NCBI RefSeq assembly: GCF_041821025.1
Contig: NZ_JBGUAY010000007.1
Coordinates: forward strand, 62,001-126,000
DNA length: 64,000 nt
DNA from: Egicoccus sp. AB-alg6-2
Lineage (GTDB): Bacteria > Actinomycetota > Nitriliruptoria > Nitriliruptorales > Nitriliruptoraceae
Direction: 5' to 3'
The translations under genes and the position numbers were made by a program. This document shows, one piece after another, positions 7,902-29,728 of the stretch (its first letter is position 1; the number at the start of each line of letters is the position of its first letter). The notes under the pieces were generated by a model, which did no database searches, had not been told where the DNA came from, and saw nothing but the letters and a program-made list of their open reading frames with translations.

Positions 7902-8628
7902 ACGGGCGCCGGCCCGGGCGCCTGCCGGCCGAACCGGAGTCGCCGGGCAGGCGGCGGACGAGGTAGTCCCATGCCTGTTCGAGCAATGCGTCGTTGTAGC
8001 AATGGTCCCGCTTGCGCAGGGCCTCGTCATCATCGGAGGCGGCGAGCGTGGAAGCCGCGCCGACAGCCAGCAGCTGGGTTCGGCATGCCCGCTCGAGCAG
8101 GATGGCGCCGAGCACCGCCGTGGGGACGTCCCGGCCCGTCGCCACGATGCCGTGGTTGACGAGGAACAGGGCGCGCTGGTCCCCGAGGGTGGCGGCGACA
8201 CGTGCGCCGAGTTCGGCTGTCAGGATCAGGTCGCCCGTTTCCTCGAACCGGGGAACCTCGGGCGGCGTGAACAGCGTGCCTTCATGGGAGATCGGCAGCA
8301 ACGGTGATCCCGTGGCCGCCAGGGCCACGGCGTGGGGCGCGTGCGTGTGCACGACGCTGCCGACGTCGGGTCGTGCCGCCAGGATTTCCGTATGGATGGG
8401 GAACTCGGCATGGCGGCGACCGGATCCGGCGATGACCGACCCATCGCGCGTCAGGAGCACCACGTCGTCGCGGGTCACTTCCTCGAATCCCCAGGTGGCC
8501 GCCTTCATCCATGTGCCGCGACCCTCGGGATCTCGCGCCGAGACGTGTCCCCAGATCAGATCGCCGTGGCCTTCCGATCCGAGAACCCGGCAGCCGGTGG
8601 CGACCAGGTCGCGCAGATCGTCCTGCAT
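7876..8628 (-). CDS. Class II aldolase/adducin-family protein
   Basis: A 250-aa zinc-type class II aldolase. Metal-ligand segments are visible: EFPIHTEIL, the HTHAPHAVALAATG motif (HxH plus third His) and LVNHGIVATG. These enzymes cleave or isomerise hydroxy-acid phosphates, and several aromatic-acid clusters use them as decarboxylases or aldolases. The ATG at 8628 follows GGAGGAGG, and a GTG five codons upstream is less likely. An operator at 8687 lies between it and the divergent Rieske operon, so both directions are probably co-regulated. The tail after residue ~225 is arginine-rich (RRPGRRPFRRRN). Confidence 0.8.
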   Translation of the reverse strand: MQDDLRDLVATGCRVLGSEGHGDLIWGHVSARDPEGRGTWMKAATWGFEEVTRDDVVLLTRDGSVIAGSGRRHAEFPIHTEILAARPDVGSVVHTHAPHAVALAATGSPLLPISHEGTLFTPPEVPRFEETGDLILTAELGARVAATLGDQRALFLVNHGIVATGRDVPTAVLGAILLERACRTQLLAVGAASTLAASDDDEALRKRDHCYNDALLEQAWDYLVRRLPGDSGSAGRRPGRRPFRRRNVRT

Positions 8629-8686
8629 GACGTCCTCCTCCACGGGAGTCGAGCGCGGTTGACCGGAGCGGAAGCAAGTGGAACAA

Positions 8687-8697
8687 TGGTACTACCT
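8687..8697. promoter_or_regulatory. GntR-type operator site 3
   Basis: TGGTactACCT, one mismatch from consensus, lies in the divergent promoter region between the class II aldolase (minus) and the eight-gene Rieske operon (plus). It is about 60 bases upstream of both start codons. Confidence 0.7.
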
Positions 8698-8757
8698 TTA
8701 GTTCGCTCTGGGCGAGGCGCGTCGTACGGCCACGCGCGAGAACAGACAGGACGTTCG

Positions 8758-10044
8758 ATGCTCAAGCAGGAGATCAACGAGCTGCTGACGCAGACCGGTC
8801 CGGGAACGCCCATGGGCGCGCTCTTCCGCCAGTATTGGCTTCCCGCCCTGCTGGCCGAGGAGTTGCCCGAGCCTGGCAGCCCGCCGGTGCGGGTCAAGCT
8901 GCTGTCGGAACGCATGATCGCCTTCCGTGACGATGACGGAAACTATGGCTTGATGGACGAGTTCTGCGCCCATCGCGGGGTTTCGATGTGGTTCGGCAAG
9001 AACGAGGGCAACGGCCTCCGCTGCGCCTACCACGGCTGGAAGTACGACGTCACCGGGCAGTGCATCGATGTGCCGTCGGAGCCGGCCGAGAGCGGCTTCT
9101 GTGAGAAGGTGAAGCTGACCAGCTACCCCCTCGTCAAGGTGGGTGACATCCTCTGGGCCTACATGGGTGACCCCGAGTCGCAACCGCCGCTGCCGGAGTG
9201 GGAGTTCGCGGTCGTCCCGCCGGAGCAGACCTTCACTTCGAAGCGCTGGCAGGAGAGCAACTGGCTCCAGGCCCTCGAAGGCGGTATCGACTCCAGCCAT
9301 GTCTCCTGGCTCCACAGCGGCGGCTTGAAGAACGACCCCCTGTTCAAGGGCGCCAAGGGCAACGAGTACAACCTCAACGACATGCGGCCCTTCTTCGAGG
9401 TCGTCGACGCCGACGGCGGCCTGTTCATCGGAGCGCGCCGTAACGCCGAAGAGGGTCACTACTACTGGCGTATCACGCCCTGGGTCATGCCCGCGTTCAC
9501 CATGGTCCCGCCGCGTGGCGACCACCCCGTGCACGGCCACTTCTGGGTGCCCATCGACGACGAGAACTGCTGGGTCTTCACGTTCGACTATCACCCGGTA
9601 CGCGCGCTCACGCCCGATGAGGTCCAGGCGATGAAGGACGGACACGGCGTGCACAACGAATACGAGCCCGGAAGCTTCCGTCCGCTGCAGAACAAGGACA
9701 ACGACTACCTGATGGATCGTGAGGCGCAGAAGCGCGGCGACACGTTCTCCGGGGTCAAGGGCATCGCGATGCAGGATGCCTCGTTGCAGGAGAGCATGGG
9801 GCCGATCGTCGATCGCACCAAGGAACGCCTGGTGTCCACGGATACGGGCATCATCAAGGCCCGCCAGAAGTTGCGCCGCGCCGCCGAGGCGCTACGTGAT
9901 CACGGCACGACGCCGCCCGGGGTGGATCCCGCACATCACCAGATTCGATCCGTGGCGATCGTCCTTCCCGAGGACCAGCCATTCATCGAGGGCAGCCGCG
10001 AAGACCTCAGGGTCCGACCGGGTGTTCGCCAGACGTCGGTGTGA
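8758..10044 (+). CDS. Rieske oxygenase, phthalate 4,5-dioxygenase / LigX type
   Basis: A 428-aa single-component oxygenase subunit. The Rieske [2Fe-2S] ligands are C70-x-H72 and C89-x2-H92, followed by YHGWKYDVTGQ. The mononuclear iron site is D178-x2-H181-x4-H186 in GGIDSSHVSWLH. The N-terminus (TQTGPGTPMGALFRQYW) and PPVRVKLLSERM are typical of the phthalate 4,5-dioxygenase/5,5'-dehydrodivanillate O-demethylase group. The enzyme would oxygenate or O-demethylate a carboxylated aromatic. It needs a reductase, and none is in the window. It is first of a tightly overlapping operon running to 15535. The next gene overlaps its stop (GTGA). Confidence 0.9.
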   Translation: MLKQEINELLTQTGPGTPMGALFRQYWLPALLAEELPEPGSPPVRVKLLSERMIAFRDDDGNYGLMDEFCAHRGVSMWFGKNEGNGLRCAYHGWKYDVTGQCIDVPSEPAESGFCEKVKLTSYPLVKVGDILWAYMGDPESQPPLPEWEFAVVPPEQTFTSKRWQESNWLQALEGGIDSSHVSWLHSGGLKNDPLFKGAKGNEYNLNDMRPFFEVVDADGGLFIGARRNAEEGHYYWRITPWVMPAFTMVPPRGDHPVHGHFWVPIDDENCWVFTFDYHPVRALTPDEVQAMKDGHGVHNEYEPGSFRPLQNKDNDYLMDREAQKRGDTFSGVKGIAMQDASLQESMGPIVDRTKERLVSTDTGIIKARQKLRRAAEALRDHGTTPPGVDPAHHQIRSVAIVLPEDQPFIEGSREDLRVRPGVRQTSV

Positions 10045-10604
10045 ACATGCGCAACCCGACACTGCTCAACAGTTGCGCCCGGGCGGCGACGGCCGCCGAG
10101 GCCCGGTTCCGTATCAACGGACCGGAGCCGGCGCCCCGCGCGACGCGTGTCATCGCGCTCGATCCGGGCGCCGCGGCTCTCGTCGCCGCGACAGCCGAGG
10201 ATCGTCCCTGGCACGGCGCCCACTTCCTGACGTACGAGTCCTCACTGCCGATGGGTGAGGGCCAGGAACTCACCGTCGACGCGGTGGTGCGGGGGCGGAC
10301 GACGGTGGACGCGGTTCTGCGAACCGCTGACGGCCGCGAGTCGCGGCTCAGCGACGAACTCGACGGTGCGGACGTGGCCGTCATGATCGCGACAGCGGAC
10401 GACCATGCCGAGGCCGCCTTGATGATCGGTGCCGCCTGCGCGCGACGCGGCATCATGACGGCCGGGCTCGTCGTCCCGAACGGCAACGGTGAAGCCGGCC
10501 GGATCGACCGCACGGTCTCGATGCTGCGGCCGTACGCCATGGTGCTGCTCGTCTCCAACGACAAGGACGACCTGCCGGAGGTGCTGGCCGCCTTGCGCGC
10601 CTGA
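10041..10604 (+). CDS. Unknown operon protein between Rieske oxygenase and PanB homologue
   Basis: A 187-aa protein without a confident family match. The GTG start overlaps the oxygenase stop by 4 bases, showing translational coupling. The C-terminal half looks like a small alpha/beta domain: a strand-helix unit with DVAVMIATADDHAEAALMIG, then MTAGLVVPNG and a further strand YAMVLLVSNDKDD. No signal peptide or membrane helix, so it is probably cytosolic. It may be a subunit or accessory factor for the PanB-like enzyme 42 bases downstream. This is inference from gene order only. Confidence 0.55.
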   Translation: MNMRNPTLLNSCARAATAAEARFRINGPEPAPRATRVIALDPGAAALVAATAEDRPWHGAHFLTYESSLPMGEGQELTVDAVVRGRTTVDAVLRTADGRESRLSDELDGADVAVMIATADDHAEAALMIGAACARRGIMTAGLVVPNGNGEAGRIDRTVSMLRPYAMVLLVSNDKDDLPEVLAALRA

Positions 10605-10645
10605 GTCATGCCCGCCCACGGCCGTCTTCCGAAGAAGTGAGTGAC

Positions 10646-11479
10646 ATGAGTTCCGAGGACCGGATCACCCTGCCTGCCGTGCAGCAGATGAAGCGCGATG
10701 GCCGCAAGGCGGTGTGTGCGGTGGCCTGGGACTACCAGATCGCCCGGATCGTCGATCGCGCGGGGGTCGACATCGTGTCGGTCGGCGACACGGTGGGCGT
10801 GAATCTCTGGGGACAGGCCAATCCCCTCGAGATCACCATGGAGCAACTGCTCGTGGTGGCCCAGGCGGTCCGTCGCGGCGTCTCGCGGGCACTGGTGAGC
10901 TGTGACTTTCCTTTCGGTCCCCTCCAGGAGGGCCCGGACGCGGCCGTGCGGGCCGCCATCCGGCTCGTGAAGGAGGCCGGCGTGGACATCGTGAAACTCG
11001 ATGGTGCGGCCGAGTTTCCCGAAGCGGTCGAAGCCATCGATCGCGCGGGGATACCCGTGTTCGCCCAGTTCGGCATTACGCCGCAGACCGCCCTGCGCCA
11101 TGGCATCGACTACCAGGCGGCCGCCGACGTCCAGGTCCCGCCCGAGATGACCGAGGAGATGGTCGCCCAGGCCCGGATGCTCGAGGAGGCGGGTGCGTCG
11201 CTGCTCAATTTCACCAACTCCGGACCGGTCGTCGGCCCTGAGGTGGTGGCTGCGGTCTCCATCCCCGTCCTCGGCGGCTTCGGCGGGGGGCCCTGGCTCG
11301 ACGGACGTATCCGGATGGCTCATGCCGCCATCGGGTACGCCGCGAAGAATCTTGATTCGCCGGCGGACACCTATGCCAACGTGGCACAGATCACGTACGA
11401 GGCGATCCAGGCCTACGCCGCGGATGTCCGCGCGGGACGCCAGATCAAGGGCGGCATTCCCGTAACGCCGCCGCAGTAA
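10646..11479 (+). CDS. Divergent ketopantoate hydroxymethyltransferase (PanB) homologue
   Basis: A 277-aa TIM-barrel protein of the PanB family. The GDTVG metal motif (D48), DFPF (D87) and VKLDG are recognisable. Key PanB residues differ: the usual VKLEGG glutamate is Asp (D119), GDSLG is GDTVG, GHxGLTPQ is AQFGITPQ. The segment that carries the catalytic Glu in PanB (VLExVP) is LLNFTNSGP. It sits inside an aromatic-oxygenase operon rather than with panC, so it is unlikely to make pantothenate. An aldol or retro-aldol step on a pathway keto acid is more plausible. ATG at 10646 preferred; GTG at 10637 possible. Confidence 0.75.
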   Translation: MSSEDRITLPAVQQMKRDGRKAVCAVAWDYQIARIVDRAGVDIVSVGDTVGVNLWGQANPLEITMEQLLVVAQAVRRGVSRALVSCDFPFGPLQEGPDAAVRAAIRLVKEAGVDIVKLDGAAEFPEAVEAIDRAGIPVFAQFGITPQTALRHGIDYQAAADVQVPPEMTEEMVAQARMLEEAGASLLNFTNSGPVVGPEVVAAVSIPVLGGFGGGPWLDGRIRMAHAAIGYAAKNLDSPADTYANVAQITYEAIQAYAADVRAGRQIKGGIPVTPPQ

Positions 11480-14213: not shown

Positions 14214-14549
14214 ATGTGCGATGACGACGTGGGATTGCTGAGCGGCCTCGTCGGTGGGCGCCGGGGCGCCGACGACGTCGCCCTACGCCAGCGCGACGGT
14301 CGGCCGTATCTCGTCCTGCGCAACGAGTTCGCGACCGTCTGGCTCGGGATAGATCGAACGGCGAACGGCGTGCGCGTGCTGGTCACCGACCCCGAGACGG
14401 ACACCGTCATCGCGCTGGATCCACTCGAGCTCGAAGCGATATCGCGCATGACGCATCAGGATTTCGACGATCGCATCCTCGAGCGTGGGCCGGGCACGCC
14501 GAAGCGCGAGCCGACACGAGCCGTACACCACGGTCAGGAGAAGGCATGA
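14214..14549 (+). CDS. Small unknown protein of the dioxygenase operon
   Basis: A 111-aa protein, start chosen at 14214 from the GAGGGAGG upstream. It has a compact predicted beta-rich core, RPYLVLRNEFATVWLGIDRT then VRVLVTDPETDTVIALDP, followed by a helix LEAISRMTHQDF. No cysteines suitable for an iron-sulfur cluster beyond Cys2, so it is not a ferredoxin. Its position after the beta subunit suggests an accessory factor, which is inference only. The stop overlaps the next gene (ATGA). Confidence 0.6.
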   Translation: MCDDDVGLLSGLVGGRRGADDVALRQRDGRPYLVLRNEFATVWLGIDRTANGVRVLVTDPETDTVIALDPLELEAISRMTHQDFDDRILERGPGTPKREPTRAVHHGQEKA

Positions 14550-16030: not shown

Positions 16031-16981
16031 TCAGCCGATGAGCTCGTGGGTGCCGGCAGCGAACAACTCCTCCATCGTCGGGGGGCGATCCAAGATGTGT
16101 TGTGTGACGGCATGTCGGAGCAGCTCGTCGATCATGGCCCGGTTGGGCGCGATCCCGTACGGCAGCGGATCTCCGCCCGTCAGTTCCATGACCCGGCGGT
16201 GCATCGCATCGACCCGGGTCGGCGCCTCGAGCTCATCGGCTTCGAGGCGCTCCACGTAGCGACGCTTCGACGCTGCGAACGCCTCGAACAGGTCGGCTGC
16301 CAACCCGGGATGCTCGGCGAGCAGATCGTCGCGCACGACGACGAGGTGGTTGATGGGGTACAGGTCCCGCTCCGCCAATGCCTGGAAGCCCGCTTCGTCG
16401 GCATCCGGCAGCAGTGGACCGATCCGCTCGTCGTCGGTCTTGAGCCCACCGACCACGGCGTCCACATGCCCGTCGAGGAGGAGTTGGGACAGATCCTCGC
16501 CCTCGTGCAGGTCCTCGACGTTCGGGGGCGGGCGGTATCCGGCCACGTGCTCCTCGTCGGACCGCACCCACGTCACCGTATCGAGGTCGACGCCGTATTC
16601 GTCCTGCAGGATCGCGCGTGCCCAGACGCCGGTGGTCACGGTGTAGCCGCGGTTGACGCCGATCCGGCGACCAGCGAGGTCTGACGGCGGCGGCGACGGA
16701 CGCGTGGTGTCGTGCAGGATGGCGCCGTGGTGCAGGTCCCGCACCAAGAAGATCGGGAGCGCCGTGAAGCGTGCACCGTGGGCCTTCGCGCACAGGTAGG
16801 TCGTGAACGCCAGTTCGCAGACGTCGTAGCTCAACTCACGCACCATGCGCCTGAAGGCATGCACCAGGACCGGTACCTCCTCGAAGTCGAGGGAACACGT
16901 CGAGGGCGCGACGACGCCGGCCTTCAGGTCGGCATTGTTCCCCTGGCTCCGGCTGACGGCCGTGAGTCGCAGTTCCGCCAT
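16031..16981 (-). CDS. 4,5-dihydroxyphthalate decarboxylase family protein (copy B, divergent)
   Basis: A 316-aa relative of copies A and C, more diverged. The family pattern is kept as YDVCELAFTTYL, ALPIFLVRDLHHGAILH, GRRIGVNRGYTVTTGVWARA and DPLPYGIAPNRAMIDELL. The FPSRMFRHG motif of A and C is altered, so substrate or activity may differ. No signal peptide. ATG at 16981 has GGAGGAC upstream. It is divergent from the alcohol dehydrogenase operon and forms a two-gene unit with the RpiB-like gene. Confidence 0.75.
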   Translation of the reverse strand: MAELRLTAVSRSQGNNADLKAGVVAPSTCSLDFEEVPVLVHAFRRMVRELSYDVCELAFTTYLCAKAHGARFTALPIFLVRDLHHGAILHDTTRPSPPPSDLAGRRIGVNRGYTVTTGVWARAILQDEYGVDLDTVTWVRSDEEHVAGYRPPPNVEDLHEGEDLSQLLLDGHVDAVVGGLKTDDERIGPLLPDADEAGFQALAERDLYPINHLVVVRDDLLAEHPGLAADLFEAFAASKRRYVERLEADELEAPTRVDAMHRRVMELTGGDPLPYGIAPNRAMIDELLRHAVTQHILDRPPTMEELFAAGTHELIG

Positions 16982-17061
16982 GTACCCGTCCTCCAAATGA
17001 CAGACCATTGGACCTTCGCATAGAGTGTAACGCCACGAGACAGACGGGCGAGGAGCGCAGC

Positions 17062-18180
17062 ATGGCGGAGACGGTCTTGGCGGCGGTACGTACCGCCCCC
17101 GGCACGACGGAGTTGCGCGAGTTTGCCCGACCGTCCATCGACGCCGACTCCGCGCTGATGCGCGTGGAGGTCGCGGGCATCTGCGGCACCGATGTCAAGA
17201 TGTATGCCAAGCCGCCGTTCACCGACCCGGTCATCATGGGACACGAGAACATCGGTGTGCTCGCCGACGCCGGGCCCAAGTTCCTGGAACGGCACGGCCT
17301 GGAGGTCGGCGACCGCATCTTCGTCGAGCACTACGTCGCGTGCTACCGCTGCGACTGGTGCCACCTCGGCGAATACCGTCACTGCGAGAAGACCGACTGG
17401 CGAACCAATCCCGACGCGCGCCGCTACGGCTACACCTCGTCGGAGCATCCGGGCACGTTGTGGGGCGGGTTCTCCCAGTTCATGTATCTGCCGTGGAATG
17501 CCGTGATCCACCGGGTTCCGACGAACGTCTCGGCCGAACTGGCCGGCATCGTCACACCGTTGTCCAACGGCATCGAATGGGCCCTCATCGCCGCGGGCAT
17601 CGGCTACGACGCGAAGGTTCTGATCCAGGGGCCGGGGCAGCAGGGCCTGTCCCAGGTCGTCGCCTGCAGCCAGGCGGGTGCCTCCAAGATCATCGTGACC
17701 GGCACGACCAGGGACCGAGCGCGCCTGGAGCTGGCGGAGGAGTTGGGCGCGGACGTCACGGTGGACGTGCTCACCGACGACCCCCTCGGAAAGATCATGG
17801 AAGCGACGAACGGGGTGGGCGTCGACTACGTACTGGACTGCACGGCGGGGGCTGGTACGGCCCCGGTGCTGCTCGGTATCGACGCGCTGAAGCGGCGTGA
17901 AGGGACCATGCTCATCCAGGGCGAACTCGCGGCTTTCCCGGACTTCCCGATCAAGAAGCTCACGGAGAAGGCGATCACCATCAAGAGTGCCCGCGGGCAC
18001 AGCTACCGCGCGTGCGAGCTCGCACTACGTCAGCTCGCGTCGCACCGGTTTCCCCTCGAGAAGCTGTCGACACACACGTTCGGTCTCGACCAGGTCGACC
18101 GGGCCATTCGGGCTGTCGGCGGCGAGGTGGAGCAGGACGTCATCCATGTGTCGCTGCTGCCATGGGAGGGACAGGCGTGA
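17062..18180 (+). CDS. Zinc-dependent alcohol dehydrogenase (MDR family)
   Basis: A 372-aa medium-chain dehydrogenase. Catalytic zinc ligands are C41 (GICGTD) and H61-E62 (GHEN). The structural zinc site is C94, C97, C100 and C108. The nucleotide fold starts at [15 protein letters not shown]. It oxidises or reduces an alcohol/aldehyde with NAD(P). In context it could act on a semialdehyde or hydroxy-acid intermediate; no specific substrate can be named. ATG at 17062 with GGAG upstream. First of a six-gene operon; its stop overlaps the next start (GTGA). Confidence 0.87.
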
Positions 18181-18866
18181 GCGTCGTCGTCCGCAACATT
18201 CCGCGTGCCGATCGTGATGTCGTCGACGCTTTCTCCGGCGTCGGCGTCGCGACGGTCCACGAAGCCCAGGGTCGCACCGGCCTGCTGGCTCCGCAGATCG
18301 CCCCCATCTACTCCGGGGCCCATGTCGCCGGCTCAGCCGTCACCGTCAGCACGGCGCCGGCGGACAACTGGATGCTGCACGTCGCGGTCGAGTGGTGCCA
18401 GGACGGTGACGTACTGGTCGTCGCTCCCACGTCGTTCTCCGATGCCGGCTACTTCGGTGAGCTCCTCGCGACGGCACTCCAGGTTCGCGGCGTCCGGGGT
18501 CTCGTCATCGATGCGGGGTGTCGCGACGTGAGCGAGCTCACGGCCATGGGATTCCCGGTCTGGTCGAAGTGTGTGTCAGCCGAGGGAACGGTGAAGGAGA
18601 CCCTCGGTAGCGTCAATGTGCCGATCGTGTGTGCCGGTCAGGCCGTGCAGCCGGGGGATGTCGTCGTTGCCGACGACGACGGTGTGGTGGTCGTGCCGCG
18701 GCTCCGCGCGCGGGAGGTGTTGGCGTCATCCCAGGCGCGGGAGGAGAAGGAGGCGCGGGGTCGCGAGCGCTATGCCGCCGGTGAACTCAGCCTCGACGTC
18801 CACGGGATGCGGGAACGGCTGGAGCGGAAGGGCCTGCGCTACGTCGACCACCCCGAGGACGTCTGA
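18177..18866 (+). CDS. 4-carboxy-4-hydroxy-2-oxoadipate aldolase (LigK type, RraA fold)
   Basis: A 229-aa class II pyruvate aldolase with the RraA fold, which would split 4-carboxy-4-hydroxy-2-oxoadipate into pyruvate and oxaloacetate. Diagnostic segments are [20 protein letters not shown] (conserved Arg-Asp pair) and [20 protein letters not shown], then [16 protein letters not shown]. The length fits LigK/ProA rather than the ~160-aa RraA regulators. GTG at 18177 is preceded by GGGAGG and overlaps the dehydrogenase stop. The adjacent LigJ-like gene supplies its substrate. Confidence 0.88.
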
Positions 18867-18894
18867 GCCGCGAACCGACAGGGAGACCCCATCG

Positions 18895-19917
18895 ATGATC
18901 ATCGACGTCCATGGCCACTACACGACGGCACCATCGCAACTTCGGGAATTCCGCGATCGACAACTGGCGCGGCGCGGCGAGCCGGGCCGGGAGCGGCCGA
19001 TCCTGGCGGCGATCAGCGACGAACAGATCCGGGAATCGGTGGAGCGGAACCAGTTGCGGGTGCTGCGAGAGCGCGGTGGCGATCTGATGCTGCTCTCACC
19101 CAAGGCATCCGGCATGGAACATCATGTCCCGGACGAGGCGACAGCGACGGATTGGGCCCGGGCGAACAACGACCTCGTGCACCGGGTGACCCGGCTGTTC
19201 CCGCAACACTTCGCCGGTGTCTGTCAGCTCCCGCAGACGCCAGGCGGGCCACTGGGCCCCGTCGTCACCGAACTGCGCCGCTGCGTGGACGAACTCGGCT
19301 TCGTCGGCTGCAACGTGAACCCGGATCCGTCGGGTGGCCACTGGAACGGCCCGCCGATGACCGACGAGTACTGGTTTCCGCTGTACGAGGCGATGGTCGA
19401 CCTCGACGTGCCGGCCATGATCCACGTCTCGAGTTCCTGCAACGACAATTTCCACACCCTGGGGGCGCACTACCTCAACGCGGACACCGCCGTCTTCATG
19501 CAACTGCTCGAGGGTGACTTGTTCGGGCGCTTTCCAACGCTGCGTTTCGTGATCCCGCACGGCGGGGGAGCGGTGCCCTACCACTGGGGCCGTTTCCACG
19601 GCTTGGCCGCTCGCATGGAGCGCCCGCCGCTGGAGGAGCACGTGATGCGCAACGTGTACTTCGACACCTGCGTCTATCACCAGGCTGGCGTCGAACTGCT
19701 GCATCGGGTCGTCGGCACCGACCGTCTGCTGTTCGCTTCCGAGATGCTCGGCGCCGTCCGCGGCACCAATCCAGAGACCGGATCCGGTTGGGACGACACG
19801 AAGCGATACGTCGATGCGCTCGGGCTCGGCGACGACGAACGCGCACGGCTGTTCGAGGGGAACGCCCGCCGGGTGTATCCGCGTCTGGACACGCTGCTCG
19901 TGGCCCACGGCCGCTGA
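18895..19917 (+). CDS. 4-oxalomesaconate hydratase (LigJ type, amidohydrolase)
   Basis: A 340-aa amidohydrolase-superfamily enzyme that hydrates 4-oxalomesaconate to 4-carboxy-4-hydroxy-2-oxoadipate in the protocatechuate 4,5-cleavage pathway. It starts with the metal motif MIIDVHGHYTT (H6, H8). LigJ-typical segments are NVNPDPSGGHW, AMIHVSSSCN, HYLNADT, VIPHGGGAVPYHWGRF, YFDTCVYHQAG, LLFASEMLGAVRG and FEGNARRVYPRLD. The ATG at 18895 follows CAGGGAGA. Pairing with the LigK-type aldolase makes the assignment strong. Confidence 0.9.
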   Translation: MIIDVHGHYTTAPSQLREFRDRQLARRGEPGRERPILAAISDEQIRESVERNQLRVLRERGGDLMLLSPKASGMEHHVPDEATATDWARANNDLVHRVTRLFPQHFAGVCQLPQTPGGPLGPVVTELRRCVDELGFVGCNVNPDPSGGHWNGPPMTDEYWFPLYEAMVDLDVPAMIHVSSSCNDNFHTLGAHYLNADTAVFMQLLEGDLFGRFPTLRFVIPHGGGAVPYHWGRFHGLAARMERPPLEEHVMRNVYFDTCVYHQAGVELLHRVVGTDRLLFASEMLGAVRGTNPETGSGWDDTKRYVDALGLGDDERARLFEGNARRVYPRLDTLLVAHGR

Positions 19918-19959
19918 ACACGCGGAGTGGGGGCGTTCGAACGACGAGAAGGGAACGAT

Positions 19960-20952
19960 GTGGGCAACCTGACGTTGACGCTGGCCTGCGGTGACTACGA
20001 CCGAACCAGGGCGCTGCACGACGAGACCGTGAAGCCCGACGGGATCGATCTGACCTATCTGCGGCTCCCCGTCGAGGAGACGTTCTTCCGCATGATGCGC
20101 CACCAGGAGTTCGAGGTGGCCGAGATGTCGTTCTCGTCCTACGTCGTCTCGCTCCAGCGCGATCCCGCGCCGTTCATCGCGCTGCCGGTCTTCCCGTCAC
20201 GGATGTTCCGGCACGGCGGGATCTACATCAACACCCGTTCGGGGATCGAGCGACCAGAGGACCTGCGCGGAAAGGTGGTCGGCGTTCCGGAGTACCAACT
20301 GAGCGCCAATGTCTGGATTCGGGGCATGCTCGCGGACCGCTACGACGTGCCGGTCGACTCGGTGCTCTACCGGACCGGCGGTCAGGAGCAGGCCGGCCGG
20401 ATCGAAAAGGCGCGCATCGAGCTTCCGGACAACATCAGGGTGGTACCGATCGAGGCCACGCAGACGTTGTCGCAGATGCTGGCGGAGGGGGAGATCGACG
20501 CGCTGTACTCGCCGCGGATCCCTCGTCCGTTCGCCGATCGCGATCCCCGGGTCGCCCGACTCTTCCCCGATGTCGTGCAGGCCGAGAAGGACTATTTCGC
20601 CGCGACCGGCATCTTCCCGATCATGCACGTCGTCGCGTTGCGCCGCGACGTCTACGAGGCCAACCGATGGGTCGCCCAGTCGCTGACGAAGGCGTTCGTA
20701 CGCGCAAAGGCCGAGGTGTTCGACCGACTCTACGATTCGTCGGCGCTCCGGTTCATGCTGCCGTGGCTGAACCAGTATCTCGAGGAGGCACGCGACCTGC
20801 TCGGCGACGACTACTGGTCCTACGGCCTCGAGCCGAATCGCGAGGTGCTCGACACCTTTCTTCGCTACCACCACGAGCAGGGGTTGTCGAAGGTGCGCCT
20901 GACGCCGGAGGAGTTGTTCGCCCCGGAGTCGGTCGAGTCCTTCCTGATCTAG
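19960..20952 (+). CDS. 4,5-dihydroxyphthalate decarboxylase family protein (copy C)
   Basis: A 330-aa protein close to copy A: TLTLACGDYDRTRALHDE, FEVAEMSFSSYV, FIALPVFPSRMFRHGGIYIN, GKVVGVPEYQLSANVWIRG, ATGIFPIMHVVALRRD. No secretion signal. The GTG at 19960 is favoured by GAAGGGA. Its position right after ligJ supports a decarboxylation step feeding, or parallel to, the 4,5-cleavage branch. A role as solute-binding-like sensor is an alternative. Confidence 0.8.
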   Translation: MGNLTLTLACGDYDRTRALHDETVKPDGIDLTYLRLPVEETFFRMMRHQEFEVAEMSFSSYVVSLQRDPAPFIALPVFPSRMFRHGGIYINTRSGIERPEDLRGKVVGVPEYQLSANVWIRGMLADRYDVPVDSVLYRTGGQEQAGRIEKARIELPDNIRVVPIEATQTLSQMLAEGEIDALYSPRIPRPFADRDPRVARLFPDVVQAEKDYFAATGIFPIMHVVALRRDVYEANRWVAQSLTKAFVRAKAEVFDRLYDSSALRFMLPWLNQYLEEARDLLGDDYWSYGLEPNREVLDTFLRYHHEQGLSKVRLTPEELFAPESVESFLI

Positions 20953-22705: not shown

Positions 22706-23797
22706 ATGCGTAGCGTGAGGCATCGCGGAATGCACCGGGCGGTGGGCATCATGGCGGCATGCGGCCTGCTGCTGGCCGCATGTGGAACCGATGGACAGAC
22801 GGCCACGCCGACCGACGAGTCGGACCAGCCTGCTGACGCCCCGGAACAGGGCGACGGTGATGGCGACGCAACTGGCGAGGGTCTGTTGGCCGGCGAGACG
22901 ATCACCTTCGTCGTCGGCGTCAGCCCGGGCGGCGGATACGACTCGTATGCCCGCATGATCGCGCCGTTCCTCGCCGAGGAATTGGGCGCGAACGTGGTCG
23001 TCGAGAACCAGCCGGGGGCGGGCGGGCTCGTCTCGCTCAACAACCTGTACGCGGCTGAGCCGGACGGGACCACCATCGCGTTGGCGAATGGATCCGGTAC
23101 GGGTGGCAACGTGCTCACCGGTGCCGAGGGCATGGAATTCGAGTACGGCGAGTTCAGTGCCCTCGGGAGAGTCGCCGGCGAGCCGAAGGTCCTCGTGGCC
23201 GCAGCCGACTCCGGGTACGAGTCGATGGAGGACCTGCTCGCCGACCCCGAGGGGTTCCGGTACGGCACGACCGGTCCGGGCGGTTCGACGCACACCGATG
23301 CGTTGTTGCTGCGCGCCAGCCTGGGGATTCCCGGAGAGCTCGTGTCCGGCTTCGACGGCAGTGAAGAGATCGGCCTGGCGCTGGCGGCAGGGGAGCTGCA
23401 GGGCACCATCGGAACCCTCGACAGCCACGTCCCCGACATCGAAGCCGGCGACCAGGTGCCGATCGCGATGATCGCGAACGAGCGCGCAGAGGACTTCCCC
23501 GACGTCCCGACGGTGCTGGAATATGTCGAGGACGAAGATCAGCGCGTCATCGCGGAAACGCACACCGCCGTCATCGACCTCGGGCGGGCGCTGCTCGCAC
23601 CCCCGGGACTTCCGGACGACATCCTGAACGAATTGCGGCAGGCGATCGAGAACGTCTTCACGAGTGAGGAGTTCCTGGCCGAAGCCGAATCGCAGAACCG
23701 GCCGATCGGTTTCCTCACGGGCGAGGAGCTCGCCGAGCGGATCCAGGTCGTCGTCAATGCGCCGGAGTCGGTGTTCCAGGCCCTCCAGGAGCAGTAG
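22706..23797 (+). CDS. tctC: Tripartite tricarboxylate transporter solute-binding lipoprotein (TctC/Bug)
   Basis: A 363-aa extracytoplasmic receptor. Lipobox LLAAC near residue 27, an acidic linker, then the Bug fold: FVVGVSPGGGYDSYARMIAPFL, VVENQPGAGGLVSLNNLY, and GTTGPGGSTHTDALLL binding loops. Members of this family bind carboxylates, including terephthalate and other aromatic acids, for TctAB uptake. ATG preceded by GAGGGAG. A strong intercistronic hairpin follows before tctB. Gene symbol denotes family only. Confidence 0.88.
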   Translation: MRSVRHRGMHRAVGIMAACGLLLAACGTDGQTATPTDESDQPADAPEQGDGDGDATGEGLLAGETITFVVGVSPGGGYDSYARMIAPFLAEELGANVVVENQPGAGGLVSLNNLYAAEPDGTTIALANGSGTGGNVLTGAEGMEFEYGEFSALGRVAGEPKVLVAAADSGYESMEDLLADPEGFRYGTTGPGGSTHTDALLLRASLGIPGELVSGFDGSEEIGLALAAGELQGTIGTLDSHVPDIEAGDQVPIAMIANERAEDFPDVPTVLEYVEDEDQRVIAETHTAVIDLGRALLAPPGLPDDILNELRQAIENVFTSEEFLAEAESQNRPIGFLTGEELAERIQVVVNAPESVFQALQEQ

Positions 23798-23808
23798 GAC
23801 GTTCAGGA

Positions 23809-23843
23809 CCGGGGTGGCGCGACGTTCGCCCGCGCCACCCCGG
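23809..23843 (+). terminator. Intercistronic hairpin between tctC and tctB
   Basis: A perfect 13-bp stem (CCGGGGTGGCGCG / CGCGCCACCCCGG) with a 9-base loop and no T-run. Placed after the binding-protein gene and before the membrane genes, it probably attenuates transcription or protects the tctC mRNA 3' end so the receptor is made in excess. Confidence 0.65.
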
Positions 23844-23863
23844 CCAACGAGGAGTTTCGGTAC

Positions 23864-24421
23864 ATGACGGGTCACGACGTCTCGGCGGCGGGCCTACGGC
23901 GGTGGTCGCCGCTGATCTTCGCAGTGACCCTCCTCGCGCTCGTGGGGTGGATGGTCTTCGCCGCGCTCGGGTTCGCCGAACAGGCGCGGCGCATCCCGCT
24001 GGTGGTCGGCGGCCCGACACTGGTCCTGATCGCGATGCAGGTGATCCGCGTCGCCATGGCTCGACCGGATCCCAGTCTCGAGGACGACACCGAGCTCGCC
24101 CGCGTTGCTGCGGATGCCGCCGATGCGCCCGAGGCCCTCGAGTCGGCGGAGATGGCGAGGCAGGCGCCACCACGGGCCGAGGGCACGACCGGGATGAAGG
24201 CGATCGGGTGGGTGCTCTTCCTCGCAGGCTCCGTGCTCCTGCTGGGTCTGCTCCCGACGGTGCCGTTGTTCGCCGCGGCGTTCATGCGTCGTTACGGACG
24301 CGAGCCGTGGTGGGTCATCGGTGCCGTCACGGCCGGGACACTCGCCGTCGTCTATGGGTTCTTCATCAGGGTGCTCGAGGTGCGGATCTTCGGCGGCTTC
24401 CTGTGGGAGTGGTTGGCATGA
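23864..24421 (+). CDS. tctB: Tripartite tricarboxylate transporter small permease (TctB)
   Basis: A 185-aa protein with four hydrophobic helices: the first at about residues 17-36, the second at 44-64, then a charged cytoplasmic loop rich in Ala/Glu, and a C-terminal pair (VLFLAGSVLLLGLLPTVPLF and AVTAGTLAVVYGFFI). This layout and gene order are those of TctB. GAGGAG lies upstream of the ATG. Sequence conservation in TctB is low, so position between tctC and tctA is the main support. Confidence 0.82.
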   Translation: MTGHDVSAAGLRRWSPLIFAVTLLALVGWMVFAALGFAEQARRIPLVVGGPTLVLIAMQVIRVAMARPDPSLEDDTELARVAADAADAPEALESAEMARQAPPRAEGTTGMKAIGWVLFLAGSVLLLGLLPTVPLFAAAFMRRYGREPWWVIGAVTAGTLAVVYGFFIRVLEVRIFGGFLWEWLA

Positions 24422-24477
24422 GGGTGCGCAGGCAGGCGCTTGACGCGATGTCGACGGCACGCGCAGGGGGGCGCTGA
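24418..24477 (+). CDS. Possible 19-codon coupling ORF between tctB and tctA
   Basis: An ATG at 24418 overlaps the tctB stop (ATGA), and the frame ends in TGA whose last base starts the tctA ATG (TGATG). The predicted peptide is basic (MRVRRQALDAM...). It may simply carry ribosomes across the gap so that TctA is translationally coupled to TctB. No evidence of a functional peptide. Confidence 0.3.
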   Translation: MRVRRQALDAMSTARAGGR

Positions 24478-25991
24478 TGGCTCCGCTCGACGGGCTGGCC
24501 CTGCTCAGCCCGACCGTCTTCGTGTACATGCTGCTCGGGGTGTTGTTCTCGACGGTGGTCGTCATCACCCCGGGACTCGGTGGGCTGTTCGCCATCGCCG
24601 TGATCCTGCCGTTCGCGCTCACGTTGGATCCCGTCGCGGGCATCGCGATGATCCTCGGTGTGAACGTCGTCAGCGGTACCGGGAACACGATCACGGCGAT
24701 CCTGTTCGGCATCCCGGGTTCGGCATCCGGGGTCGCCAGCACCTTCGACGGCTTTCCGATGTCGCGGCGTGGCGAAGGCGTACGCGCCGTGTCCGCCGGC
24801 CTCGTGGCCTCGGCCGTGGGCGGCCTCATCGGCGCAGCCGTCCTCGCACTCTCGCTGCCGGTCCTGCGACCGATCGTGCTCGCGTTCCGGCCTCCGGAGT
24901 TCTTCGCCTTGATCCTCGTCGCCATGGTGTTCATGGCGTTCGTCGGGGGAGGCGACCCGCTCAAGGGCCTCATCTCCGGAGGCCTGGGCCTCATGCTGGC
25001 CTTCGTCGGGCTGGAGAACAGCACCGCCCAGCAGCGCTACACGTTCGGTGAGCTGTTCTTGTGGGACGGCCTCCCGCTCGTCCCCATCGTCCTCGGCCTG
25101 TATGCGATCACCGAGATGCTGGCGCTCATCGAGCGAGGTGGGGCGATCAGTGGCGCCAAGCACCCCGTCGGGTGGGCGCACCAGATGCTCCGTGGCGCAA
25201 CGGACGTCTTCCGCCACTGGCAGGCCACGCTGCAGAGTTCCATCGCTGGGCTCTGGGTGGGCATGGCCCCGGGACTGGGCGACTCGGCCGCGCAGTTCGT
25301 CGGCTACGCGCAGGTCGCGAAGACGTCGAAGAACCGCGAGAACTTCGGGAAGGGCGCCATCGAGGGCGTCATCGCCGCGGACGCCGCCACCAATTCGAAA
25401 GAGGGCGGGGCCCTGATCCCGACCCTGGCGTTCGGCATCCCCGGAAGTTCGTCGATGGCGATCGTCATCGCCGCGTTTCTCGCGTTCGGTATCCAGCCGG
25501 GTCCGGAGATGCTGACGCAGAACGTCGACATCGTCTGGATGATCATCTGGATCCTGGTCTTCGCCAACCTGATCACGGCCGTGGTCTGTCTCGGCGTGAC
25601 GCCGGGAATCGCCAAGCTGACGCAGTTGCGAGCGTCACTGCTCGTGCCGCCGATCCTCGTGCTCAGTGTGTTCGGTGCCTACTCGTCCTCGAGTCGTCTG
25701 GGCGACATCCTGACGTTGTTCGGGTTCGGGCTGTTCGGGTGGCTCCTCAAGAGGTTCGGCTACTCGCGCGCCATCTTCTTGATCGGATTCGTGCTGGGCC
25801 CGATCCTGGAATCCAACTACCTGCTGTCGATGCGGATCTTCGGCCCGGCCTTCCTGCGCCGGCCCATCACGATGGTGTTGCTCGCGCTCCTGCTGCTCAT
25901 CGTGGTCGGCCCGGTGATGAAGCGGCTGCTCGACGGCTTGCGAACACCTCGCGCCGATGCGGAGAAGGCCAGCGGCGGCGAGGGCCGGTGA
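24477..25991 (+). CDS. tctA: Tripartite tricarboxylate transporter large permease (TctA)
   Basis: A 504-aa integral membrane protein with about twelve helices. The TctA signature regions are clear: ITPGLGGLFAIAVILPFAL, SGTGNTITAILFGIPGSASG near residues 60-85, the repeat-related AADAATNSKEGGALIPTLAFGIPGSSS around residue 305, and a terminal helix LLALLLLIVVGPVMK. It forms the transport channel with TctB for the substrate delivered by TctC, driven by ion gradient. SD AGGGGGG before the ATG. Confidence 0.92.
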   Translation: MAPLDGLALLSPTVFVYMLLGVLFSTVVVITPGLGGLFAIAVILPFALTLDPVAGIAMILGVNVVSGTGNTITAILFGIPGSASGVASTFDGFPMSRRGEGVRAVSAGLVASAVGGLIGAAVLALSLPVLRPIVLAFRPPEFFALILVAMVFMAFVGGGDPLKGLISGGLGLMLAFVGLENSTAQQRYTFGELFLWDGLPLVPIVLGLYAITEMLALIERGGAISGAKHPVGWAHQMLRGATDVFRHWQATLQSSIAGLWVGMAPGLGDSAAQFVGYAQVAKTSKNRENFGKGAIEGVIAADAATNSKEGGALIPTLAFGIPGSSSMAIVIAAFLAFGIQPGPEMLTQNVDIVWMIIWILVFANLITAVVCLGVTPGIAKLTQLRASLLVPPILVLSVFGAYSSSSRLGDILTLFGFGLFGWLLKRFGYSRAIFLIGFVLGPILESNYLLSMRIFGPAFLRRPITMVLLALLLLIVVGPVMKRLLDGLRTPRADAEKASGGEGR

Positions 25992-26113: not shown

Positions 26114-27250
26114 ATGGTCAAGGACGCGATCGTCAACGACAAGATGGCGGCCAAGTTCGCCACGGAGAAGGAAACGCCCTACACGCGCTGGGTGGCCTCC
26201 GAGGGTCTGGAGATCATCGCGGCGCACTATGTGCCCGACCTCCGCACCGTCGAGCTCAAGCCATGGGATCGCCGGGGGGGCAAGGGCGTGTTCATCAACC
26301 ATGAGGCGTCCCGCACCTCCAACGACTGCTACGTGTGCGAGATCCCGGCTGGGGGCAAGCTCGCCCCGCAGCGACAGCTGTTCGAGGAGATGATTCTCGT
26401 CCTCGAAGGGCAGGGATCGACTCGGGTTTGGAACGACGCCGGGGCCGAGGTGACGTTCGAGTGGCAAGCGGGCTCGATGTTCGCCATCCCCCTGAACACC
26501 AACCACCAGCACTTCAACGGCTCGGGCCAGAAGGCAGCGAGATTCGTCTCGTCGACGAACATGCCCCCCGTGGTGAACCTCTACGACGACGTCGACTTCG
26601 TGTTCGGTACCGCGCACGACTTCACGAACCGGTTCAACGGTGAGCCCGACTACTTCGCCCCGAAGGGGGAGCAGAAGGGTTTGCTCCTGGACACCAACTT
26701 CGTCGCGGACGCGGTCAACCTCCCGCTGATCGAAGCCAAGGAACGCGGAGCGGGTGGCGGCCACATTCGTTTTGCCATGGCCAAGGGGTCGATGAACAGC
26801 CACATCTCCCAGTTCCCGACCGCGACGTACAAGAAGGCGCACCGTCATGGCCCTGGTGCGCACGTGATCATCCTGTCCGGCACCGGATACAGCCTGATGT
26901 GGCCCGAAGGTGAAGAACCGCGTCGTTACGAGTGGGGGCCAGGGGCGATGATCGTGCCGCCGAACATGTGGTTCCACCAGCACTTCAACAGCGGCACGGA
27001 GCCGGCTCGCTACCTCGCGTTCAAGCACGAGGTCGTCTCGGTGCGCAACGCGCAAGGAGTGCCGAAGGCCTGGATCAGCCAGCGAATCGGGGGTGACCAG
27101 ATCGACTACGCCGACGAATCCGAGTTGGTGCGTTCGACCTTCCGTGACGCGCTCGCCGAGGTGGGTCTCGAACCGGCCATGGACGAGGTCTACGAGGCCG
27201 AACTCGAGGACCTTCCGCCCAAGCCGGACCACGCCGACGCGCCTGCCTGA
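26114..27250 (+). CDS. Bicupin protein (copy 1)
   Basis: A 378-aa double-cupin protein. The first cupin keeps the glutamate (FEEMILVLEGQG) and the closing PLNTNHQHFNG segment, but Gln replaces the His-x-His pair (PQRQLF). The second has HRHGPGAHVIILSGTGY and PPNMWFHQHFN, so it can bind metal although the usual Glu is His. Such bicupins include gentisate-type ring-cleavage dioxygenases, and related proteins next to EutA homologues are sometimes named ethanolamine ammonia-lyase activating proteins. Neither role is proven. SD GAAGGG. Eight bases separate it from the EutA-like gene. Confidence 0.7.
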   Translation: MVKDAIVNDKMAAKFATEKETPYTRWVASEGLEIIAAHYVPDLRTVELKPWDRRGGKGVFINHEASRTSNDCYVCEIPAGGKLAPQRQLFEEMILVLEGQGSTRVWNDAGAEVTFEWQAGSMFAIPLNTNHQHFNGSGQKAARFVSSTNMPPVVNLYDDVDFVFGTAHDFTNRFNGEPDYFAPKGEQKGLLLDTNFVADAVNLPLIEAKERGAGGGHIRFAMAKGSMNSHISQFPTATYKKAHRHGPGAHVIILSGTGYSLMWPEGEEPRRYEWGPGAMIVPPNMWFHQHFNSGTEPARYLAFKHEVVSVRNAQGVPKAWISQRIGGDQIDYADESELVRSTFRDALAEVGLEPAMDEVYEAELEDLPPKPDHADAPA

Positions 27251-27258
27251 TCCGGACC

Positions 27259-28836
27259 GTGACGGCGCCCAGCGGCGAGCCCGACGGTCGAGTGCACTCG
27301 CCGTATTCTCCCGACCATCACCACGACCACGACCACGACGCTCTCAGCCCGATCGAAGAGAACCCGATCTGGCAGCAGGACAACGTCGTCCTGCACAGCG
27401 TTGGCATGGATGTCGGTTCGTCCGGTACGCAGGTGGTGTTCTCCCGGCTGCACCTGCGACGGATCGGGGAGGAACTCACCAGCCGCTATATCGTGGTGCG
27501 CCGCGACACGCTGTATCACTCGCCGGTGGTGCTCACGCCGTACGCCGACGACGAGCGGATCGATGCCGCGCAACTCGGCGGGATCATCGACGAAGCGTAT
27601 GCCGCCGCAAACGTGCGACCCGAGGACGTGGACACGGGCGTCGTCATCCTGACCGGTGAGGCGCTTCGCCGGCGCAATGCCGAGCGAATCACCCAGATCC
27701 TCGCTGAACGCGGCGGTGAGCTCGTCTGCGCGAGCGCCGGTCACAACATGGAGGCGATGCTTGCCGCGTACGGGTCTGGTGCGGCGAAGGCGTCCTACGA
27801 GCAGCGCACCCGGCTGCTGAACATCGACATCGGCGGCGGGACCACCAAGCTTGCCGTCGTCGACCACGGTCGCGTCGTCGCCACCGCGGCCGTTCACGTG
27901 GGCGGGCGGCTGCAGGTCATCGACGAGGAAGGCCGCATCGTGCGGCTGGATCCCGCGGGCGCGGAACATGCCCGCCGCGCCGGCTTCGCCTGGCAGGTCG
28001 GCGAACACATCGACCCGCAACGACTGGACGAGGTGGCCGAAACCATGGCCGATGCGCTGCTGTCGGCGATCTGGGACCGACCGCTCGACGACGCCGTCGA
28101 GCAGCTCTACCTGACGGACGTCATCGCCGACCTCGGTCCGATCCACGGGGTGATGGTCTCCGGGGGGGTCGCCGAGTACGTCTATGACCGGGAACAGCGG
28201 CATTTCGGCGATCTGGGCCGGCCCTTGGGCAGGGCACTCCGAGAACGGTTCGATGCGCACGGGGTCCCACTGCTCCCAGCAGGGGAGTGCATCCGCGCGA
28301 CGGCGCTGGGAGCGTCGGAGTACAGCGTGCAGTTGAGCGGCAACACCGGATGGATCTCCAACCACGATGCCCTGCTGCCGCGCCGCAACCTGCAGGTGGT
28401 CAGGCCGCCGTACGTGCTCGACGACGAGATCCTGCCGGCCGATATCGCGACGGCCGTTCGGGACCACCTCGCGGCGTTCGACAAGGACCATCCGGATGCC
28501 GAGGTGGCGCTCGCGCTCCACTTCTCCGGTCCGCCGGCCTACGAGCGGCTGCACGCCTTCGCTGCGGGTGTCGCCCAAGGGCTGCGTACGCGTATCGACG
28601 GCGGCCATCCGCTGTACCTCATGCTCGATGGCGACGTGGCCATGACGCTCGGACGGTTGCTCGACGAGGAGTTCGGCGTGCGTGCCGACCTGCTGGTCAT
28701 CGACGGGCTCAGCCTGTGGGACTTCGATTTCATCGACCTCGGGCGCCTGCGGCATCCCTCCAACACGGTGCCCGTCACGATCAAGTCGCTGGTCTTCAGC
28801 GAAGACCCACGCCACGGCGGCAAGGCGCGGGTCTAG
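27259..28836 (+). CDS. EutA-like ammonia-lyase reactivating ATPase (orphan)
   Basis: A 525-aa protein of the EutA family of chaperones that eject damaged cobalamin from ethanolamine ammonia-lyase. Actin-fold ATPase motifs: phosphate-1 GMDVGSSGTQVVF (about residue 49), phosphate-2 NIDIGGGTTKLAVVD, and adenosine motif GVMVSGGVAEYVY. A His/Asp run (HHHDHDHD, residues 20-27) could bind metal. No eutB, eutC or other B12 enzyme is in the window, so its client is unknown. GTG start without a clear SD. Confidence 0.8.
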   Translation: MTAPSGEPDGRVHSPYSPDHHHDHDHDALSPIEENPIWQQDNVVLHSVGMDVGSSGTQVVFSRLHLRRIGEELTSRYIVVRRDTLYHSPVVLTPYADDERIDAAQLGGIIDEAYAAANVRPEDVDTGVVILTGEALRRRNAERITQILAERGGELVCASAGHNMEAMLAAYGSGAAKASYEQRTRLLNIDIGGGTTKLAVVDHGRVVATAAVHVGGRLQVIDEEGRIVRLDPAGAEHARRAGFAWQVGEHIDPQRLDEVAETMADALLSAIWDRPLDDAVEQLYLTDVIADLGPIHGVMVSGGVAEYVYDREQRHFGDLGRPLGRALRERFDAHGVPLLPAGECIRATALGASEYSVQLSGNTGWISNHDALLPRRNLQVVRPPYVLDDEILPADIATAVRDHLAAFDKDHPDAEVALALHFSGPPAYERLHAFAAGVAQGLRTRIDGGHPLYLMLDGDVAMTLGRLLDEEFGVRADLLVIDGLSLWDFDFIDLGRLRHPSNTVPVTIKSLVFSEDPRHGGKARV

Positions 28837-28891
28837 CACCGAGGTGGCAAGCCGCTCCGCCCGCCCGCAGTGTGTCGAAGGAGTATCCGCA

Positions 28892-29728
28892 ATGGACATG
28901 AACAGCCCGCGCGTAGGGCTCATCGGGCTCGGCCTGATGGGAGCGCCCGTCGCCCGAAACCTGCTGCAGGCAGGCGTTCGGCTGACCTGTAACGATCTCG
29001 ACGCATCCGCGGTTGCCGTTGCGGTCGAGCAGGGCGCGACGGCCGCCGCCACCGCCGCGGAGGTGGCCGCCGACAGCGATGTCATCCTGGTGATCGTGCC
29101 GACGAACGAGGACGCACGCGAGGTCGTCGCCGGATCGGACGGCGTGCTATCCACGGCCCGGCCGGGCTCGGTCGTCGTCCTGTGCAGTTCGCTCAGGCCC
29201 GACACCTGTGCCGAACTCGAGGAACGGGCACGGGAGGCGGGGGTCCACCTCATCGATGCACCCATGACGGGCGGTATCCGTGGCGCCGAGCAGGGCACGA
29301 TGACGCTGCTGGTGGGCGGTGACGTCGCCGCACTGCAGCGGGCGCGACCCGCCCTCGAACTCATCAGCAGCACGATCCACCACCTCGGTGGCATCGGCGC
29401 GGGGCAGGTGGGCAAGACGGTGAACAACCTCATCCACTGGGGAGAGGTCGTCGTCATCACGGAAGCCTTGGCGCTGGGTGCGAAGCTCGGCGTCGACGTC
29501 AGTCGTATGCGGCGAGCACTGATGGACGCCAGCGTCGACAGCAGGACGCTGCGTGAACTGGAGAAGATGAAGTTCACCTGGCATGCCAAGGACCTGGAGG
29601 ATGCCATGGACATGGCGGCCACCGTGGGACATCGCATGCCCGCAGCCGAGATGTCTCGTGAGGAGATGCTGTCGATCACTCCGGAGCGGGTGGCGCGACT
29701 GCTCGCCGACGAGGACTGGGACGCCTGA
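28892..29728 (+). CDS. Beta-hydroxyacid dehydrogenase (3-hydroxyisobutyrate dehydrogenase family)
   Basis: A 278-aa NAD(P)-dependent dehydrogenase. N-terminal GLIGLGLMGAPVARNLL dinucleotide motif; substrate loop DAPMTGGIRGAEQGTMTLLVGG; catalytic Lys in GAGQVGKTVNNLIHWGE. These enzymes oxidise 3-hydroxy acids to semialdehydes (or reduce tartronate-type aldehydes). ATG at 28892 with AAGGAG upstream. Third gene of the bicupin operon. The next gene is convergent after 18 bases. Confidence 0.87.
   Translation: MDMNSPRVGLIGLGLMGAPVARNLLQAGVRLTCNDLDASAVAVAVEQGATAAATAAEVAADSDVILVIVPTNEDAREVVAGSDGVLSTARPGSVVVLCSSLRPDTCAELEERAREAGVHLIDAPMTGGIRGAEQGTMTLLVGGDVAALQRARPALELISSTIHHLGGIGAGQVGKTVNNLIHWGEVVVITEALALGAKLGVDVSRMRRALMDASVDSRTLRELEKMKFTWHAKDLEDAMDMAATVGHRMPAAEMSREEMLSITPERVARLLADEDWDA

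Follow-up and report, generated by a model that had tools for sequence, protein, structure and literature searches.

A EutA-like ATPase encoded beside a bicupin in Egicoccus sp. AB-alg6-2: a recurrent gene pair with a candidate role in metal exchange

Introduction

On what does a EutA-like protein act in a genome in which the EutB subunit of ethanolamine ammonia-lyase has no match? The question is raised by a 64,000-nucleotide stretch of DNA from the actinobacterium Egicoccus sp. AB-alg6-2 (contig NZ_JBGUAY010000007.1, positions 62,001 to 126,000; hereafter ‘the window’), in which a gene of the EutA family directly follows a gene for a bicupin. EutA carries out the ATP-dependent removal of damaged cofactor from its enzyme (PMC5821096). 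Nickel chaperones, HypB among them, insert metal with the help of nucleotide hydrolysis, and cupins are prone to mis-metallation, a textbook case being MncA, whose metallation is governed by metal availability (PMC4192464). An earlier note on this DNA, made from the letters alone, called the EutA-like gene an orphan and proposed that the pair may be a metallochaperone/ATPase system for one of the oxygenases of the region or for a distant client. In our literature search, we found no paper that joins EutA to a cupin client or to Rieske oxygenases. In one paper that does mention ‘EutA’ beside a cupin, the name belongs to another protein, of ectoine utilisation.

Results

The bicupin and EutA-like genes

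The two genes lie on the plus strand, separated by a gap of 8 bp, and span exactly the interval that the earlier note had assigned to them (26114–28836). The His/Asp run that it reported in the EutA-like protein is also found precisely at residues 20–27.

26114..27250, plus strand: type-1 bicupin, the proposed client (ORF, 378 aa, ATG start)
27259..28836, plus strand: EutA-like ASKHA ATPase, type 1 (ORF, 525 aa, GTG start)
27316..27339, plus strand: codons of HHHDHDHD, residues 20–27, a putative metal-binding tail (from the sequence)

The EutA-like protein matched the Pfam family EutA (PF06277) with 382 bits over profile positions 3–474 of 475, and it is the only full-length match to this family in the window's genome. 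It missed the NCBIfam equivalog cut-off for EutA, with a best score of 307 versus 598 bits. Its phosphate and adenosine motifs DVGSSGTQ, NIDIGGGTTKLA and SGGVAEY are intact. Foldseek matched its structure model, which is of middling quality (pTM 0.59), to PPX, HgdC-type activators, MreB and EutJ. Thus, by both Pfam and Foldseek the fold is that of the ASKHA ATPases, and a P-loop G-domain is absent. A match to Hydantoinase_A was weak (14 bits). Between tctA and the cupin gene we found no promoter of the sigma-70 type, and the window has no Rfam match to a cobalamin riboswitch or other such RNA control. At 60605–60672 on the minus strand, Rfam gave a match to the mycobacterial sRNA family ASdes, in a genome that does not look mycobacterial.

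In the bicupin, Cupin_2 was matched in two stretches (Pfam, 41.6 bits). The loss of the His pair from the first cupin, which the earlier note had pointed out, extends to its aligned homologues: QRQLFEE occupies the HxH position in the window's protein, and HxH is gone in 14/14 aligned homologues. In the second cupin, H243, H245, H288 and H290 are retained by every aligned homologue (n = 14). Invariant H243, H245 and H288, together with the alignment to 3bu7, define a site of the form HxH...H without a Glu ligand, and the missing Glu favours a 3-His dioxygenase over an oxalate decarboxylase.

In a profile search, the nearest solved sequence was gentisate 1,2-dioxygenase 3bu7, which has in common with the bicupin KAHRH, GxGYS and a WxHxN-like pattern. 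The predicted structure is a bicupin fold (pTM 0.81), and Foldseek matched it to bicupins of the OxdC/MncA type (E about 1e-17); these matches are generic bicupins only, and the two domains superpose poorly (rmsd about 10). The bicupin thus resembles the 3-His bicupins of the gentisate 1,2-dioxygenase group (3bu7, NF049978, TIGR02272) in its fold, in its HxH...H site without Glu and in its aromatic-degradation context. However, its scores against this group are 18.8 to 34.7 bits, far under the equivalog cut-offs (18.8 versus 442 bits for the gentisate 1,2-dioxygenase equivalog), and its predicted metal site is confined to the second cupin. With oxalate decarboxylase and MncA it shares the overall bicupin fold (Foldseek), but the identity is about 10%, the TM about 0.47, and neither the Glu ligand nor a first metal site is present here. 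On the basis of its motif and its cluster context, the bicupin is probably a 3-His ring-cleaving dioxygenase. The window also encodes a second bicupin of another kind (41975–43072), distantly like 5-aminosalicylate and gentisate dioxygenases and found also in L011 and L019 of the related loci described below; judged by its sequence, it may provide the cluster with an alternative means of ring cleavage.

The surrounding cluster

The pair is part of a larger group of genes on the same strand, most of which recur in related loci.

8332..10044, plus strand: Rieske oxygenase alpha subunit, phthalate 4,5-dioxygenase-like (Pfam Rieske and LigXa_C; recurs in related loci)
10041..10604, plus strand: uncharacterised protein of roughly 180 aa, found after the Rieske gene in most clusters (conserved)
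10637..11479, plus strand: PanB-like enzyme (PF02548), conserved neighbour (Pfam and related loci)
17008..18180, plus strand: zinc-type alcohol dehydrogenase, conserved neighbour (Pfam and related loci)
18616..19917, plus strand: amidohydrolase-2 family enzyme, conserved neighbour (Pfam and related loci)
19927..20952, plus strand: 4,5-dihydroxyphthalate decarboxylase homologue, conserved neighbour (9jp7)
22803..25991, plus strand: tripartite tricarboxylate transporter TctC-TctB-TctA, directly upstream of the pair
28883..29728, plus strand: 3-hydroxyisobutyrate-dehydrogenase-family gene, downstream of the pair (not strictly conserved)

The Rieske gene product scored 337 bits against 7fhr and 461 bits against 9ina; homology starts at residue 142 of the ORF, and the true start is probably internal. 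The protein of roughly 180 aa that follows this gene, in the window and in L010–L027, has no Pfam match above the cut-off and is possibly a small subunit or maturation factor. The decarboxylase homologue matched 9jp7 over nearly the whole protein (E 1.9e-91, 310 bits). Three paralogues of the 4,5-dihydroxyphthalate-decarboxylase type are present in the window (14546–15535, 16031–17008 and 19927–20952), and such proteins are easy to misannotate as ABC substrate-binding proteins. TctB and TctA were identified by Pfam, and TctC by similarity to related loci. The conserved neighbourhood further includes an alpha/beta hydrolase, RraA-like and RpiB-like proteins and a GntR regulator. From the sequences of these genes, the substrate of the cluster is likely an aromatic or similar carboxylic acid.

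Distribution of the pair and absence of EutB

Related loci were collected by searching for the EutA-like protein in contigs of one genome per species. Because the His run served as part of the seed in this search, His-bearing members are favoured in the sample; as a correction, we sampled 240 alphaproteobacterial genomes by Pfam profile, without using the His run. Genes in the fetched loci were taken from our own ORF calls and similarity searches, and their starts are uncertain for that reason.

The 17 related loci belong to Actinomycetota, Alphaproteobacteria and Paenibacillus, and a bicupin is encoded near the EutA-like gene in all of them (17/17). The 240-genome sample yielded five new genomes with 13 EutA-like copies, 10 of which adjoin a bicupin gene. 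The remaining three are two type-3 copies accompanied by a small single-domain cupin and UbiD (L090 and L098) and one type-2 copy without a cupin nearby (L101); the EutA-like types are defined in the next section. In L090 and L098, the EutA-like gene lies beside UbiD decarboxylase genes, and the single cupin has 124–131 aa; in L098 the adjoining gene encodes a NicO permease. The EutA-like/bicupin pair is recurrent in several phyla and is not an orphan accident, so the word ‘orphan’ used in the earlier note does not apply.

EutB had no match in the window's genome (98.4% complete), and the E. coli positive control was matched in the same search. Hence eutBC elsewhere in this genome, which by the earlier note's own account would speak against its reading, was not found. 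Its remark that no eutBC or other B12 enzyme is present stands for EutB across the genome. As regards other B12 enzymes, it is true of the window only, because five B12-binding-domain proteins scored over the cut-off in this genome, all of them encoded off the window's contig (C7). As for the cobalamin-dependent lyases that the note proposed to look for, the search was negative for EutB, with the control matched, and also for diol dehydratase, which was searched without a positive control.

We then considered the phylum to which Egicoccus belongs, where full-length EutA occurs in 9 of 296 sampled genomes. In five of these nine, eutB comes immediately after a gene for classical EutA (about 500 bits or more); the remaining four genomes (the window's own, G080, G152 and G189) encode the lower-scoring EutA-like form and no EutB. 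EutB is likewise missing in 13/17 genomes of the related loci and in all five of the further alphaproteobacterial genomes with EutA-like copies. Altogether, EutB is missing in 22/26 genomes with EutA-like genes, and the bicupin is usually adjacent, in agreement with the conservation that the earlier note suggested looking for in genomes lacking eutBC; the four genomes that do have eutB carry it on other contigs.

Corresponding types of EutA-like proteins and bicupins

A tree of 46 EutA proteins splits eutBC-linked EutA from the EutA-like clade with 100/100 support, and the window's protein groups outside the eutBC-linked clade. We ruled out that the gene is an orphan eut remnant, because eutB is absent and the clade is both separate and recurrent. 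Within the EutA-like clade, types 2 and 3 are well supported, and type 4, which is linked to formate dehydrogenase, is nested in type 1. The bicupin tree has three corresponding types, of which 2 and 3 are well supported and type 1 less so. Type-4 EutA-like genes were observed in L076, L077 and L078; they have an N-terminal His/Asp run, and we found no cupin nearby. Their neighbours include TRAP transporter genes (L077 and L078) and formate dehydrogenase-like genes (L076 and L078). A 700-aa neighbour of type-4 EutA was examined as a possible partner and rejected, since its sequence reads as UvrC.

Among EutA–bicupin pairs within 1.5 kb, the types match in 29 of 34. Of the five mismatches, four are EutA1/Cup2 neighbours that face in opposite directions in Rhizobiales-type loci; in the fifth, the two genes are 1.1 kb apart. 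In same-strand pairs within 700 bp, the types agree without exception (28/28), and this figure includes both pairs in each of the two-pair loci L021, L027, L028 and L066. The distance matrices of EutA and bicupin are correlated with r = 0.62 (0/5000 permutations as high), and within type 1 with r = 0.47 (1/5000 permutations as high); the species history shared by both genes adds to these correlations, and the two-pair loci are free of that effect.

Histidine-rich runs and nickel/cobalt permeases

An N-terminal run of the DHDHxHD type is present in 18/20 type-1 members, the exceptions being L016 and L068. The run, for example PDHDHxHDD, immediately precedes a conserved PxExNPxWxQDNV element, and it keeps its place before PxExNPxW in distant phyla. 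All three type-4 members have an N-terminal His/Asp run, most type-3 members have a shorter FDHEH form, and no member of type 2 has a His run. Given that L016, L068 and all of type 2 are without it, the run is not essential to the whole clade. Several alphaproteobacterial type-1 members, including L097, end in C-terminal tails of 11 to 29 His, and such tails are restricted to the EutA-like clade among the members examined. Among eutBC-linked EutAs whose start is clear, the N-terminus is short and the His/Asp run is missing; His residues counted in two proteins of this set apparently belong to an upstream frame that is not translated. The His-rich tails resemble those of metal-delivery proteins, and metal binding is predicted for them on this ground.

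Genes for nickel/cobalt uptake are found close to some of the EutA-like genes. On a Phyllobacterium plasmid, a Ni/Co permease gene lies beside EutA2 together with NikR; in G012, about 7 kb separates EutA2 from a Ni/Co permease gene, and NikR is on the other side. NicO is encoded 10 bp after EutA3 in G522 and is the sole NicO of that genome, and the Paenibacillus cluster has a Ni/Co permease gene about 11 kb upstream, beside acetaldehyde dehydrogenase and DmpG-like genes. Four linkages of NicO within 15 kb, compared with 0.6 expected (P about 0.003), are suggestive but statistically weak. A linked NicO permease is missing from most clusters; the window's genome has no NicO permease, and it has CbiM.

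Discussion

The observations are a recurrent gene pair with matching types, a clade separate from eutBC-linked EutA, the absence of eutB, intact ATPase motifs and conserved His tails. Because the EutA-like protein is recurrently paired with a bicupin in aromatic-acid clusters and frequently carries a His-rich tail, we propose that it may be an ATP-driven metal loader or reactivator. More specifically, there seems to be an even chance that it is a dedicated ASKHA ATPase for the adjacent 3-His bicupin and exchanges its metal, nickel or cobalt being favoured. The protein would act on the bicupin as EutA does on ethanolamine ammonia-lyase: ATP would be used to open or remodel the bicupin, so that a lost or wrong cofactor could be replaced, this cofactor being a metal ion and not adenosylcobalamin. 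The His/Asp-rich tail would hold the metal and hand it over to the bicupin. Linkage favours nickel or cobalt as the metal, and iron or manganese would be possible. The bicupin would in turn cleave the ring that the cluster's own Rieske oxygenase and decarboxylase produce. Gene linkage supports the bicupin as client, and we infer from sequence the interaction, the use of ATP, the binding and identity of the metal and the ring cleavage. The cupin-less copies, namely three of type 4 and one of type 2 (L101), count against a dedicated ATPase. So do the two type-3 copies with a small single-domain cupin, the members that lack the His run, the scarcity of linked NicO genes and the four genomes that have eutB on other contigs.

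Several known systems resemble the proposed one in part. EutA of ethanolamine ammonia-lyase (PF06277) is alike in the full-length family match, in the ASKHA motifs and in having an operon partner as its presumed client, whereas the protein described here belongs to a separate clade and has a bicupin partner, no eutBC and His/Asp-rich tails. HypB, UreG with UreE, and CooC with CooJ likewise combine an NTPase and a His-rich tail beside a candidate metal enzyme, and, as with nickel metallochaperone NTPases, a Ni/Co permease and NikR sometimes adjoin the EutA-like genes. However, HypB, UreG and CooC are P-loop (SIMIBI) GTPases or ATPases, and the EutA-like protein has the ASKHA fold and a metal role that is predicted. 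HgdC/HadI of the 2-hydroxyacyl-CoA dehydratases, RACo and HscA are also ASKHA ATPases that serve metallo-cofactor enzymes. They either contain a [4Fe-4S] cluster or have Fe-S or corrinoid proteins as their targets, whereas the EutA-like protein has His/Asp tails instead.

We also considered a different client: the EutA-like protein would serve the Rieske oxygenase, or some other enzyme encoded in the cluster, as metallochaperone or activator, and the bicupin would be an adaptor or sensor that binds metal. The Rieske gene and the small protein behind it do recur in most type-1 clusters, and just one His site is intact in the bicupin. However, that site is invariant and enzyme-like, and pairs occur without a Rieske gene nearby (L013, L068, L074, L079 and L091–L094). 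Many Rieske oxygenases function without such a factor, which also speaks against this client, and we regard the explanation as unlikely. Given that the types match one to one and that pairs occur without the Rieske gene, the adjacent bicupin is a likelier client than the oxygenases or a distant enzyme that the earlier note had in mind. Its metallochaperone idea is otherwise largely supported, with the neighbouring bicupin as the probable client, by the His/Asp run found across phyla, the His tails and the Ni/Co permeases.

Strict pairing would also suit an enzyme complex comparable with acetone carboxylase or the hydantoinase-type enzymes. In such a complex, the substrate would be phosphorylated or activated by the ASKHA subunit, and the bicupin would carry out the rest of the reaction. 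The HyuA/AcxA family offers a general precedent for ASKHA subunits with substrates as their targets, and it is accompanied here by the weak Hydantoinase_A match of 14 bits. Nevertheless, the protein is a full-length member of EutA, a chaperone-like reactivase family, and not of the HyuA family; a complex would leave the His-rich tails and the cupin-less type 4 unexplained. We find this explanation somewhat harder still to favour.

Another explanation is that the EutA-like protein reactivates an adenosylcobalamin enzyme, such as a mutase or other lyase, that is encoded elsewhere, and that the bicupin is a mere genomic neighbour. Membership of PF06277 and the five B12-binding-domain proteins of the genome agree with this, but EutB is absent, the clade stands apart from the eutBC-linked EutAs, the types of the bicupins match those of the EutA-like proteins, and no cobalamin riboswitch was found in the window, so that we consider it improbable. 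It is very improbable that the His/Asp runs are functionless low-complexity tails and the EutA-like protein a generic folding factor: the run varies in length and some members are without it, but it occupies the same place before PxExNPxW across distant phyla, and C-terminal His tails occur only in the EutA-like clade among the proteins examined.

Returning to the proposed metal exchange on the bicupin, the more general claim is that these proteins form an unrecognised, widespread class of ASKHA ATPases, annotated as EutA, for ATP-driven loading or exchange of mononuclear nickel or cobalt in cognate bicupins. They would be metallochaperones or reactivases outside the P-loop GTPase families, in ATPase–cupin pairs that co-diversified for different substrates. 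This joint claim, which extends from sequence comparison, falls slightly short of an even chance in our estimate. If it is true, the name ‘ethanolamine ammonia-lyase reactivating factor EutA’ would be wrong for many database entries from environmental bacteria. Cupin enzymes, with their classic problem of mis-metallation, would then possess an ATP-driven helper of their own, and the scope of the EutA family would widen from cobalamin exchange to metal exchange. The bicupins themselves are candidates for uncharacterised enzymes in the degradation of phthalate-like aromatic acids in Actinobacteria, Alphaproteobacteria and Paenibacillus.
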